The translations under genes were made by a program, and so were the position numbers. Below, one piece after another: positions 1-27,841 of a stretch of DNA of 34,625 nucleotides. Each line of letters starts with the position of its first letter. The stretch's first letter is position 1. The notes under the pieces are model-generated. The model worked only from the letters and a program-made list of their open reading frames with translations, had not been told where the DNA came from and did no database searches. The DNA is from Hallerella porci (GTDB lineage: Bacteria; Fibrobacterota; Fibrobacteria; Fibrobacterales; Fibrobacteraceae), in the NCBI RefSeq assembly GCF_003148885.1, contig NZ_QGHD01000029.1, positions 1 to 34,625 on the forward strand, in the 5' to 3' direction.

Positions 1-91
1 ATGCTCCGTCTTTGCCAAAAATTGGCTTTCCTGTTTTGAACTGAGATGCTGCTTTTTTGATCATCTCTTTATATTCTTCGTGTGTCATCAT
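1..91 (-). CDS. Partial transposase, probable IS256-like (N-terminus only)
   Basis: Reading leftward from ATG at 91 (or 88), the frame is open to the window edge and gives about 30 residues beginning MMTHEEYKEMIKKAA, followed by the phrase GKPIFGKDGA. A short acidic/basic helix followed by a G-K-x-x-x-G-K-D-G motif is typical of the N-terminus of IS256-family (mutator) transposases, which use a DDE catalytic core lying outside this window. A good ribosome site (GAGGA) precedes the ATG pair. The stop of an upstream fragment ORF lies only 6-9 bases away. The family call rests on a short stretch and needs the rest of the gene. Confidence 0.45.
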   Translation of the reverse strand, partial: MMTHEEYKEMIKKAASQFKTGKPIFGKDGA

Positions 92-97
92 AGTTCC

Positions 98-482
98 TCA
101 ATTTACATCATTTTTCAAATGATGCTTGGTGGTGAATGACACAGTTTTATGGATAGAGTCTGTTTTATAGCCTAAGTGCCAAGGAGAATAAATGAGATGA
201 GGTAAAGAAGTTTTAAATGGGAGAATTTCTCCATTTGAAAGTTTAGCTAACTTATAATCTGGACTAGGAAAAAATTTTGCAAAAACAGTTACTTTTGAAT
301 CATCAAATGACAGATTGTATTTAGATAATTTTTCAAAGAATAAATTTTTTGCTTTATCGATGTCAATTTCTAACCAATTTTCGACTGCGTGATGAACGCA
401 ATTTTCATCATAAAAAATTTTTTTTCAAAGAAATTTTATCCTCATAAATGAAAACTAAAAAGTGAAAATTAAATCGCATCAT
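98..482 (-). pseudogene. Fragment ORF of unknown function without an intact start
   Basis: The minus strand is open from 424 to a TGA at 98-100 and reads as ordinary protein (phrases such as VHHAVENWLEIDIDKAK and LPHLIYSPWHLGYKTD), but has no start codon. Upstream, a second frame opens with ATGATG at 482-477 (MMRFNFHFLVFIYEDKIS) and would join it if one base changed in a run of eight A (418-425). Alternatively, a short in-frame ATG (MRIKFL) is separated from it by a single TGA at 425-427. I do not recognise a family. It ends just before the probable transposase, so it may be a gene damaged by insertion. An assembly error in the homopolymer is also possible. Confidence 0.4.
106..124. repeat. 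8-bp inverted repeat just upstream of the transposase start
   Basis: CATCATTT (106-113) and AAATGATG (117-124) form a perfect 8-bp stem with a 3-base loop. On the minus strand it lies in the last codons of the fragment ORF, about 15 bases before the transposase ATG. Many insertion sequences carry a hairpin near the transposase start that limits expression from outside transcripts; that role is inference here. Confidence 0.4.
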
Positions 483-597
483 TGATAATGTGATGTGTAA
501 TTTTTTGAATAATAAAAATAGGGAGTTTAAAAATCGAAATTATGGATCATACTTTTTTAAAAGAAAATTTTTTTTAGAATTTAATGGCAAAGGATGA

Positions 598-918
598 TTA
601 TTTCCAACTTTGCTTTTCCAAAGGCAATTCATCGGCAAAGGAGTTCTTGTATAAAGCGATCTCACAATGCTTTTGCGTGTTCTTTTAAAATGTTAAAGTA
701 AACAGCGATGGTTTGATAAACTTTTTCATCTTGAAAACAGGAATCGTATTTTCACTATCTTGAAGACAAGCTTCAATCAGCATATACGGAAGACTATAAA
801 GTTCAATTATTTTCAAAAAGCCTAAAGCTTCATAGATGAAAACAGAAGAATGATACAAGCAAAATCGAATGGATGTTTTTATTTTAGTCCGTACCCATGA
901 AAATTCGGCGAGTAATTT
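598..918 (-). pseudogene. Multiply frameshifted gene remnant, family unknown
   Basis: Three consecutive minus-strand pieces in different frames read as one protein. The first, 918 down to about 760, includes HSSVFIYEALGFLKIIELYS and LPYMLIEACLQDSE. The second, about 770-665, includes KYDSCFQDEKVYQTIAVYF and NILKEHAKAL. The third, down to a TAA at 598-600, includes EIALYKNSFADELPLEKQ. The switch points are near the bases around 765 and 665. No start codon is present at the upstream end, where a TAA lies at 919-921. This looks like a decayed gene of at least 105 codons. YEALGF resembles the YEKLGF box of GNAT acetyltransferases, but the rest does not follow that fold clearly, so I leave it unnamed. 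Confidence 0.45.
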
Positions 919-1139
919 TTAGAAAGCAGATAAAAATTTTAAAAGGAAATTATTTGACAAGGGGAGAAGTCTCTCCCTCGCTGCAAATTCGCTTAAAATT
1001 TACCAATGCAGAAAAGCGAATTTTCCGCTACCCTCTCTAGCGGGGACACCCCGCAACGCCCCGAAATTAAACGAATGAATTTTACATTATAAAAAAAGAT
1101 GAAACCGAAAAAGTTTCATCTTCATTCAAAAAGAAAAGC
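919..1139. other. Non-coding stretch with clustered inverted repeats
   Basis: No credible gene. Between 962 and 1054 four inverted repeats follow one another: GGGAGA/TCTCCC (962-967/972-977), a perfect 10-bp pair AAATTCGCTT/AAGCGAATTT (985-994/1014-1023), CCGCTA/TAGCGG (1025-1030/1038-1043) and GCGGGG/CCCCGC (1040-1045/1049-1054). The last two share bases 1040-1043 and cannot form together. The tract is GC-richer than its surroundings. It could be a structured RNA, a mobile repeat remnant or transcription-stop structures; the sequence alone does not decide. Confidence 0.5.
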
Positions 1140-1622
1140 TTAAAGTTTATGGAAAAATAAAATCAAATTTTCGTAGGTACCATCGTTTTTTCTAAAACAT
1201 TTCGGAATTTCACCGAGGCGTTCAAAGCCCAATTTTTCGTAAAGATGAATTGCACCGGCATTTGATTTGACAACTGCATTAAATTGCAGAACATGAAATC
1301 CATGCGCTGTTCCTTGAGCTAGGCAATCGAGAATGAGTTGTTTTCCAATTCCTTTGCCTCGTGTTTCACGTGAAACAGCATAACTTGCGTTGGCAATGCT
1401 AGAACAACGTCCAATGTTATTCGGATGCAAAATATAAAGTTCTAAAACTTTGCCATTTTCTTCGGCTACGCCTGTATAAGTTTGACCTTCAAAAAATTTC
1501 AAAGCTTCATCATCACTTTGCAAACCTGTTTCTTGGGGAAAAGAATTTCCTTCTTCAACGACATCATTCCAAATTTTGCGCATCGCAGTGATATCTTGAG
1601 ATTGAAATGGACGAATAATAAT
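1140..1622 (-). CDS. GNAT family N-acetyltransferase with apparent ATT start
   Basis: GNAT enzymes move an acetyl group from acetyl-CoA to an amine; the substrate is unknown here. The motif-A loop RGKGIG (acetyl-CoA pyrophosphate binding), the downstream NAGAIHLYEKLGF box and overall size fit the family. The first ATG (1583) would remove the conserved first beta-strand. Upstream in frame the sequence continues IIIRPFQSQDITAM, which is the usual GNAT opening, back to three ATT codons at 1614-1622. AAGGA lies 7 bases before the first of them. Between that point and the upstream in-frame TAG there is no ATG, GTG or TTG. I therefore place the start at ATT 1622 (160 residues), although a lost ATG or use of 1583 cannot be excluded. 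A perfect parS site is embedded just before the motif-A codons. Confidence 0.85.
   Translation of the reverse strand: MIIRPFQSQDITAMRKIWNDVVEEGNSFPQETGLQSDDEALKFFEGQTYTGVAEENGKVLELYILHPNNIGRCSSIANASYAVSRETRGKGIGKQLILDCLAQGTAHGFHVLQFNAVVKSNAGAIHLYEKLGFERLGEIPKCFRKNDGTYENLILFFHKL
1362..1377. promoter_or_regulatory. parS: parS site (perfect ParB-binding palindrome)
   Basis: TGTTTCACGTGAAACA is an exact match to the 16-bp parS consensus bound by chromosomal ParB/Spo0J proteins. It lies inside the GNAT coding sequence, covering codons for VSRET just before RGKGIG. ParB-parS complexes seed chromosome segregation and usually cluster near the replication origin. No parA or parB gene is in the window. 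Confidence 0.85.
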
Positions 1623-1695
1623 GATATTTTCCTTGTTAAGAGATAACTTAAAAATAGAAAATTTTGAATGATCGGATGAAAAATTTCGACTCTAT

Positions 1696-1711
1696 TGTTT
1701 CATGTGAAACA
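1696..1711. promoter_or_regulatory. parS: Second parS-like site (one mismatch)
   Basis: TGTTTCATGTGAAACA differs from the parS consensus only at one central base (T for C). It lies in the intergenic region upstream of the GNAT gene, 334 bp from the perfect site. Two sites this close together support a genuine segregation locus rather than a chance palindrome. Confidence 0.75.
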
Positions 1712-1818: not shown

Positions 1819-2622
1819 TTAATTAGAGGGTGAATTCATCGTGGATAAATAGCGACGATGCACCCAACCATACCATTTTTCGGGAGATTTTTCAATTTGA
1901 AGTTCTAACCATTGATGGAAAAATTGAAATAACTCTTCCCCATTTTTGGGATAAATTTCTTTTGCAAATAAAATTTTGTGGTTATTTTGTGAATTCAGCC
2001 AGCAGAGATAGACCGGAGTTTGGGATAAATGCGATAGAATAAATTGAGGAATTGGATTACAATGAACAGTTTTTTTGAGAAAATTTCCGCAAATAAAATG
2101 AGATTTTCGATAATCTTGATCGGCAAGGAGACAGAAAAGTTTTCCTGCTTTTAAATTTTGAAGAATATCTTTCGAATTGTTGATAAAAAGTGAATAACTT
2201 TGACTATCTATGGTTCTGAAATGTTTATAAACGAGTTTGTCTAAAAATTTAGGATGTAAACGGGCATAACTTGCCACAAGTGGAATGTTTAATCGTACGA
2301 GCCAAGGTCCAATCGCTTCATAATTTTCGAAATGAGCGGTGAGCATAAGTCCGCCTTTTTTCATTTTTTCAAGGACAGGAAGACTTTTGGAATCAATTAT
2401 AAATTTTGAATTCTTTGCGGAATAGATACAACTTTTTGTGATAAAATCCGCAGCATCTTGCGTGAGATTTTTCAAAAGCTTTTTGTAAAAAATTTTCTTT
2501 TGGGAAAGATTTATCTGAGGATAAATGTATTCCAAATTGGTAAAGAGCACTTGCTTTTTCCAACGGATGAGATTCAAAAAGAAGAATAAAATTTTTTGCA
2601 GAAAACAAGCGCGAAAAGTCAT
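1819..2622 (-). CDS. LpxL/HtrB-type lipid A (Kdo2-lipid IVA) acyltransferase
   Basis: Lysophospholipid/lipid A acyltransferases add a secondary acyl chain to lipid A at the inner membrane. The 267-residue protein has a hydrophobic N-terminus (about 8-20), the catalytic HX4E motif (H97, E102 in HFENYE), the LADQD segment near 167-170 with a following basic R/K, and the aromatic WYGWVHRRY near the C-terminus, all characteristic of the family. It is slightly shorter than E. coli LpxL (about 306 residues), mainly at the N-terminus. It is transcribed divergently from the TSCPD gene, only 31 bases away. It may act with the lpt genes further along, though it is not linked to them. Which acyl position it modifies cannot be read from sequence. 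Confidence 0.87.
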   Translation of the reverse strand: MTFRACFLQKILFFFLNLIRWKKQVLFTNLEYIYPQINLSQKKIFYKKLLKNLTQDAADFITKSCIYSAKNSKFIIDSKSLPVLEKMKKGGLMLTAHFENYEAIGPWLVRLNIPLVASYARLHPKFLDKLVYKHFRTIDSQSYSLFINNSKDILQNLKAGKLFCLLADQDYRKSHFICGNFLKKTVHCNPIPQFILSHLSQTPVYLCWLNSQNNHKILFAKEIYPKNGEELFQFFHQWLELQIEKSPEKWYGWVHRRYLSTMNSPSN

Positions 2623-26968: not shown

Positions 26969-27841
26969 ATGTTTTGGGTCACACTTGCTCTCGGTTCTGC
27001 ATTATTCTTAGGCTTATACGATATTGCCAAAAAGAAAGCGCTTACAAAAAATGCGGTTTTACCCGTTCTCTTTTTTGTGAGTTTAACTTGTATCGTTTCG
27101 CTTTTGCCGGCGTATTTTTTAGGAAAAATTCCTTCGCTTTCGTTCCGTGAATACGGAATGCTGTTTATCAAAGCAGCGATTGTAACAACGAGTTGGAATT
27201 TTACATTCCATGCGGTTTCGCGTTTACCGCTGAGCGTTACTGCGCCCGTGCGGGCGAGCGCTCCGATTTTTACGATTGCGATGGCGGTGACGTTCATGGG
27301 CGAACGCCCTTCGGGAATGGAATGGTTGGGAATTGCGATTTCTGTCTGCGGCTTTTTAATCATGGGATTTGCATCGCGCAAAGAAACGGGACATTTCTTT
27401 ACAAACATTTGGATTCTTTCCATGTTTTTTGGAACATTTCTCGGCTCGGTAAGCGGCGTTTACGATAAATATCTTCTGCATCAGTTGGATTTGAATCCGC
27501 TAGCGACTCAATTTTATTACAACATTTATATGGCGCTTTTGCAAGGCGCGGGCATTTTACTCGTGAAATTTTTTCGGCGACATTCTGAAAACGGCAAACG
27601 ATTTGAATTTCGAAAAGTCATTTTCGCCGTGGGCATTTTTCTCGTCATCGCGGACCGCTTTTATTTCTTAGCGGTGCATGAACCGGATGCGCTCATTTCG
27701 GTCGTGTCAATTATTCGTCGGTCAAATGTGCTCATTAGTTTTGCTGGTGGACTAATTTTCTTTCACGAAAAACATCCGCCGCTTAAATTCGTTGCAATGG
27801 CGTGTATTTCCGCGGGCCTTATCTGCTTTGCGTTAAAGTAA
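26969..27841 (+). CDS. DMT superfamily (EamA-like) transporter
   Basis: The 290-residue protein has about ten membrane segments in two EamA-like halves, e.g. AIVTTSWNFTFHAVSRLPLS with a conserved VTAPVRASAPIFTIAMAV helix and GERPSGMEWLG in the first half, and SVVSIIRRSNVLISFAGG with FHEKHPPLKFVAMACISAG in the second. Such proteins export or import small metabolites; the substrate is unknown. Its 3' end overlaps the convergent SIR2-like gene by 23 bases, so no terminator separates them. Confidence 0.87.
   Translation: MFWVTLALGSALFLGLYDIAKKKALTKNAVLPVLFFVSLTCIVSLLPAYFLGKIPSLSFREYGMLFIKAAIVTTSWNFTFHAVSRLPLSVTAPVRASAPIFTIAMAVTFMGERPSGMEWLGIAISVCGFLIMGFASRKETGHFFTNIWILSMFFGTFLGSVSGVYDKYLLHQLDLNPLATQFYYNIYMALLQGAGILLVKFFRRHSENGKRFEFRKVIFAVGIFLVIADRFYFLAVHEPDALISVVSIIRRSNVLISFAGGLIFFHEKHPPLKFVAMACISAGLICFALK

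Follow-up and report, generated by a model that had tools for sequence, protein, structure and literature searches.

Can a chromosomal centromere site lie within the codons of an enzyme gene and, if so, which of the two shapes the other? This question is raised by the left end of a 34,625-nucleotide stretch of Hallerella porci DNA (hereafter the window), which is contig C29 of a 2.85-Mb Fibrobacterota assembly in 78 contigs (G000). The initial annotation reported there an exact 16-bp ParB site within a GNAT acetyltransferase gene, together with a one-base variant of the same site.

Pattern scanning of the window recovered both sites where they had been reported, TGTTTCACGTGAAACA with 0 mismatches to parS and TGTTTCATGTGAAACA with 1 (Table 1). 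The consensus is identical to that of the chromosomal ParABS systems of the Bacillus subtilis Spo0J and Caulobacter ParB type, and the match is well beyond chance: base composition predicts 1e-5 exact sites per window and 0.001 per 2.85-Mb genome, in keeping with the improbability that had been attached to a perfect 16-mer. The substituted variant is the sole form at three sites of a relative (G007). One more match in the window, at position 27759, has 3 mismatches and is unremarkable; with up to 3 allowed, shuffles of the window give an expectation of 0.20 matches.

When the whole assembly was scanned at up to one mismatch, exactly three sites were found, C29:1362, C29:1696 and C11:182-197, the last being the only other exact parS in the genome. 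Relaxing the scan to 2 mismatches added one further site, which is the level of the reversed-pattern control. Rather than being spread evenly, all three sites sit at the ends of C11 and C29.

Table 1. Features at the left end of the window, with positions counted from its first nucleotide
Feature	Position	Strand	Remarks
Insertion-sequence-like element end (ORF start at 1-91)	1..160	-	Repeated, 13 copies
Low-coding DNA from insertion element to GNAT gene	161..1139	.	Unlike the F. intestinalis interval at the DNA level
GNAT acetyltransferase GNAT1	1140..1583	-	Pfam GNAT domain; true start uncertain
Perfect 16-bp parS, TGTTTCACGTGAAACA	1362..1377	.	Minus-strand reading VSRET within the GNAT ORF
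parS with one substitution, TGTTTCATGTGAAACA	1696..1711	.	Intergenic, between the GNAT and acyltransferase genes
Lipid A acyltransferase-family gene	1819..2622	-	Flanks the parS cluster on its outer side, a position conserved in relatives

An origin-side parA-parB locus

The site on C11 covers the first codons of rsmG (TTG TTT CAC GTG AAA CAT, read as MFHVKH) and is followed by rsmG, parA, parB, an M23 peptidase gene and a bactofilin gene. This parB, 1.5 kb from the site and past rsmG and parA, accounts for the single ParB_N match in the genome. The proposed genome scan led to a second exact site, directly before parA-parB. Sites at the start of rsmG, encoding the same MFHVKH, also occur in several genera of the family (L038:181-197, L066:13652, L067:12971, L069:10942 and L043:10750) and constitute a second conserved in-frame embedding of parS.

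The H. porci ParB has a GERR motif and the residues R173, S179, K184 and S201. R173 is the parS-type residue, the one that in Caulobacter ParB contacts parS, and the protein thus carries the mark of parS-type specificity. The GERR motif and R173, the adjacent parA-parB genes and the origin-proximal cluster are all shared with the B. subtilis and Caulobacter systems; unlike in those systems, the cluster here is separate from dnaA, and positions 179/184/201 read S/K/S rather than the T/A/G of B. subtilis/Caulobacter-type ParB. Noc shares the ParB-family fold, and K184 is Noc-like. However, the residue at 173 is R and not Q, the window sites are parS and not NBS, and the NCBIfam Noc model scores this protein at 226 bits, below its 315-bit cut-off. 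A Noc-type (Q173) partner for the window sites was ruled out because of R173. Some relatives have asymmetric sites, TGTTTCACGGGAAACA, that are half parS and half NBS-like and are consistent within one genome (L071:7951 and 8865; L249:10102, 10448 and 11556; L247:9659 and 9706); the ParB of one of these relatives (G012) retains R173 and has S at 201.

In Fibrobacter intestinalis (G005) a single row holds parB, parA, rsmG with a parS, a second parS, a GNAT gene, a third parS and the acyltransferase gene, and a closed congener genome (G002) has the same type of row with the GNAT gene absent. Placing C11, reversed, before C29 reproduces the F. intestinalis row. This gene order suggests that the left end of the window abuts the end of C11 that bears rsmG-parA-parB, and the adjacency of parA-parB to the window is drawn from this synteny. 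Such parS sites are found in 58 of 61 genomes of the phylum, clustered in most cases among the matches listed, and ParB lies within a few kb of parS, or rsmG-parA-parB does, in nearly all loci with both mapped.

The assembly is split between the window and C11 by repeated insertion-sequence ends: the first 160 bp of the window and C11:1-94 are the two ends of one repeated element, with 13 copies each, nearly all at contig ends. At the presumed C11/C29 junction no target duplication is seen, the 8 bp flanking one element end being different from those flanking the other, and this element may therefore have undergone recombination with a different copy. An 8-bp duplication is shared by three other contig-end pairs, and the small number of such pairs suggests recombination between element copies. 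The 30 residues encoded by the ORF start at 1-91 have no match in Pfam or NCBIfam, and no DNA similarity was found between the low-coding interval that follows (161-1139) and the corresponding interval of F. intestinalis. At gathering thresholds, Rfam matched nothing but tRNAs in the loci searched, and none of these lie in the window.

GC skew was computed on sampled regions of the closed congener and on contigs C11 and C29. In the closed genome negative values extend to ~1.41 Mb and give way to positive ones at 1.42-1.44 Mb, which is the position of the parS cluster (1416113-1421456); the sign flips back near 2.96 Mb, about half a chromosome from the cluster. In H. porci, both contigs have positive skew when read away from their presumed junction. 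The sites thus cluster near the GC-skew minimum, their position in the H. porci genome itself being given by synteny only. Because the skew flips at the parS cluster of the closed congener, we take the window sites to be origin-proximal, as the initial annotation had thought possible. Of the landmarks it had proposed, parAB and the skew minimum do lie near the sites; dnaA does not, its position in the closed congener (C1:791001, 0.79 Mb) being ~630 kb from both the cluster and the skew flip, and it was rejected as an origin marker.

The same evidence bears on whether the sites could belong to a plasmid or an integrated element. The window does open with an insertion-sequence end, as such an origin might lead one to expect. 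However, the same rsmG-parA-parB locus is chromosomal in the closed congener, at its skew origin, and H. porci has a single parB, which makes an extrachromosomal source most improbable. Judged from sequence, the locus is a canonical ParABS cluster with ordinary parS sites. The ancestral order beside the replication origin would then be acyltransferase - [GNAT] - parS sites - rsmG - parA - parB, with ParB expected to load at each site, to spread and to be moved by ParA, and, by analogy with its family, probably to load SMC.

A parS site within GNAT codons

A parS site inside a gene is in itself ordinary, since nine of the ten parS sites of Pseudomonas aeruginosa are predicted to lie within coding sequences (PMC4368675), there as here read in frame. 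In contrast to the present case, where two GNAT families carry the site at the same codons, no recurrent host family is known to have been noted for those sites.

The host gene in the window, GNAT1, has an intact RGxGxG motif A besides its Pfam GNAT domain. The perfect parS forms the codons GTT TCA CGT GAA ACA (VSRET), directly before the acetyl-CoA loop RGKGIG, as the initial annotation had it. The frame is open upstream of its first ATG, with family-like residues to about position 1625 (..IIIIRPFQSQDITAM..), and contains no ATG, GTG or TTG at the family N-terminus (1584-1692). It is possible that the gene starts at an ATT or ATC codon after AAGGA, or that its start has been lost.

It had been suggested that the site explains the retention of the gene beside decayed DNA. 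We reject this idea, because the F. intestinalis ortholog, in the same place and 71% identical, is intact with VSQKH and no in-gene parS; most orthologs of a second GNAT family, described below, also persist without the site.

Is VSRET, then, a choice of the protein or of the DNA? A tblastn survey of 89 relatives found VSRET in two of them, namely the window's gene and a GNAT gene of a neighbouring genus (G021), which carries GGTTTCACGTGAAACC; both genes have parS codons. A pattern search for an in-frame parS core followed by RGxG in 168 genomes of the phylum gave exact matches in the window and in seven genomes of that other genus, one further genome at one mismatch, and 0 matches for the reversed control. 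The seven genes are orthologous and form a family, GNAT2, that is ~35% identical to GNAT1. All are in the parS cluster and, where the contig is long enough to show both sides, are flanked by rsmG-parA-parB on one side and the acyltransferase gene on the other. The 14-bp parS core occupies the same codons in these genes as in GNAT1. In a tree the two families are separate clades (support 100/100). On this two-clade tree, parS would have entered corresponding codons of two origin-side GNAT genes in no fewer than two independent events; gene conversion over a few codons could be an alternative to independent embedding.

An unbiased view of GNAT2 is provided by 19 orthologs from the neighbouring genus that were collected by protein and not by site. 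The 14-base core is exact in 7 of the 19, and no near-misses were seen among them: ten measured non-carriers have 6 to 9 core mismatches, with loops reading VSSAA, VGSAA, VSSKV, VSSKA or VAKNF, and one further non-carrier, the eleventh, reads VASQS. Carriers and non-carriers are intermixed on the GNAT2 tree, so that the site must have been gained or lost several times. A test of synonymous conservation in this family was set aside, because its genomes had been selected by pattern.

These counts weigh heavily against the view that VSRET is favoured by protein-level selection, that the embedded palindrome results from chance in codon choice, and that functional parS is limited to the other sites. 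It is true that V-S-x-E-x-R-G is a common shape at this position in GNAT proteins. However, VSRET is rare among the 89 relatives and never seen apart from parS codons, all seven VSRET genes of GNAT2 share the 14 bases even though the DNA of two of them (G120 and G126) has no more than 75-80% identity to that of most others, and an exact site is hardly expected in a genome by composition. We consider codon coincidence very improbable. Since VSRET was seen only where the DNA is parS, both among the 89 relatives and in the GNAT2 set, the influence seems to be reversed, with the centromere site dictating the protein sequence.

The reading frames of parS offer a reason why this position might accept it. 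One of the three frames contains a stop codon, and the others give VSRET or FHVKH/Q on either strand, so that stop-free readings are only xVSRETx or xFHVKHx. VSRET would suit the variable loop before the RGxGxG of GNAT proteins and would presumably be tolerated by the enzyme, so that a new parS could be written there at tolerable cost. The site at 1362 would thus have arisen in codons of a GNAT gene that is part of the cluster by chance, and such writing would have taken place separately in two GNAT families. From the sequence, position, gene neighbourhood and phylogenetic spread of the sites, and from the co-occurrence of VSRET with parS, we put at about 0.9 the probability that the window sites are ParB nucleation sites of a chromosomal ParABS centromere and that the one in GNAT codons formed in situ.

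A parS-led repeat and a possible route to new sites

In the neighbouring genus, many parS sites lead a structured repeat of ~106 nt. Across an alignment of 23 copies, parS is followed by a stem enclosing an A/T hairpin, and the two helices beyond parS show compensatory changes in 14 of 14 pairs, with a covariation score of 0.419; shuffles give 0.169, and sliding the alignment gives no more than 0.18. At a threshold of 40 bits, a covariance model gave 47 matches in the cluster loci (392 kb), a number that includes overlapping both-strand pairs on one parS, and a single match in 791 kb taken from other parts of two of these genomes. This control match and two weaker ones lack parS, and the control DNA (791 kb) has no parS-like site at up to 2 mismatches. 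About 15 bits of the score come from parS itself, and copies without parS are under-counted. Examples of the repeat are L297:10099-10204, L241:8437-8542 and L262:9972-10077, and loci of the neighbouring genus contain about 44 further matches; the repeat is concentrated in the origin-side parS cluster, copies without parS being rare elsewhere (L339:13468-13572).

In one GNAT2 gene of this genus (G129; L285:1102-1809), the motif-A loop is extended by an in-frame insert of ~200 bp that contains a perfect parS and leaves the frame open throughout. Sequence matching the insert also lies beside parS elsewhere in the genus, in different genomes and at different positions, and comparison of the insert with the uninserted orthologs is the best hint that the repeat can insert.

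The GNAT parS might accordingly be seen as the relic of a parS-carrying structured repeat that inserted into the motif-A loop and was then lost except for the site. The G129 insert, its match to the repeat led by parS elsewhere in the genus and the all-or-none pattern among GNAT2 orthologs, which have either 0 or 6-9 mismatches in the core, speak for such a relic. Against it, the seven site-bearing genes have the same number of codons at the loop as the siteless ones, and neither H. porci nor its genus has a credible copy of the repeat, the matches there reaching 20-29 bits, of which ~15 are from parS; the covariance search of the window itself gave 22 bits, mostly from parS, and was judged negative. 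We regard a relic as unlikely. More broadly, one may speculate that the parS sites of the family are born as whole units and not by drift. According to this speculation, the structured repeat, headed by parS on its left, would copy the site around the origin, the GNAT loop would be a preferred landing place because VSRET is tolerated there, and the window site would be a trimmed product. We consider this idea rather unlikely, formation in situ being the preferred reading.

These findings would fix the origin-proximal centromere region for a lineage on which the literature searched held no ParABS study. How a centromere region gains new parS sites is an open question in the Caulobacter literature (PMC5815017), and both the recurrence of parS in GNAT codons and the parS-led repeat bear on it. 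Less ordinary than the parS cluster itself are the return of parS to one set of GNAT codons and the repeat of the neighbouring genus.
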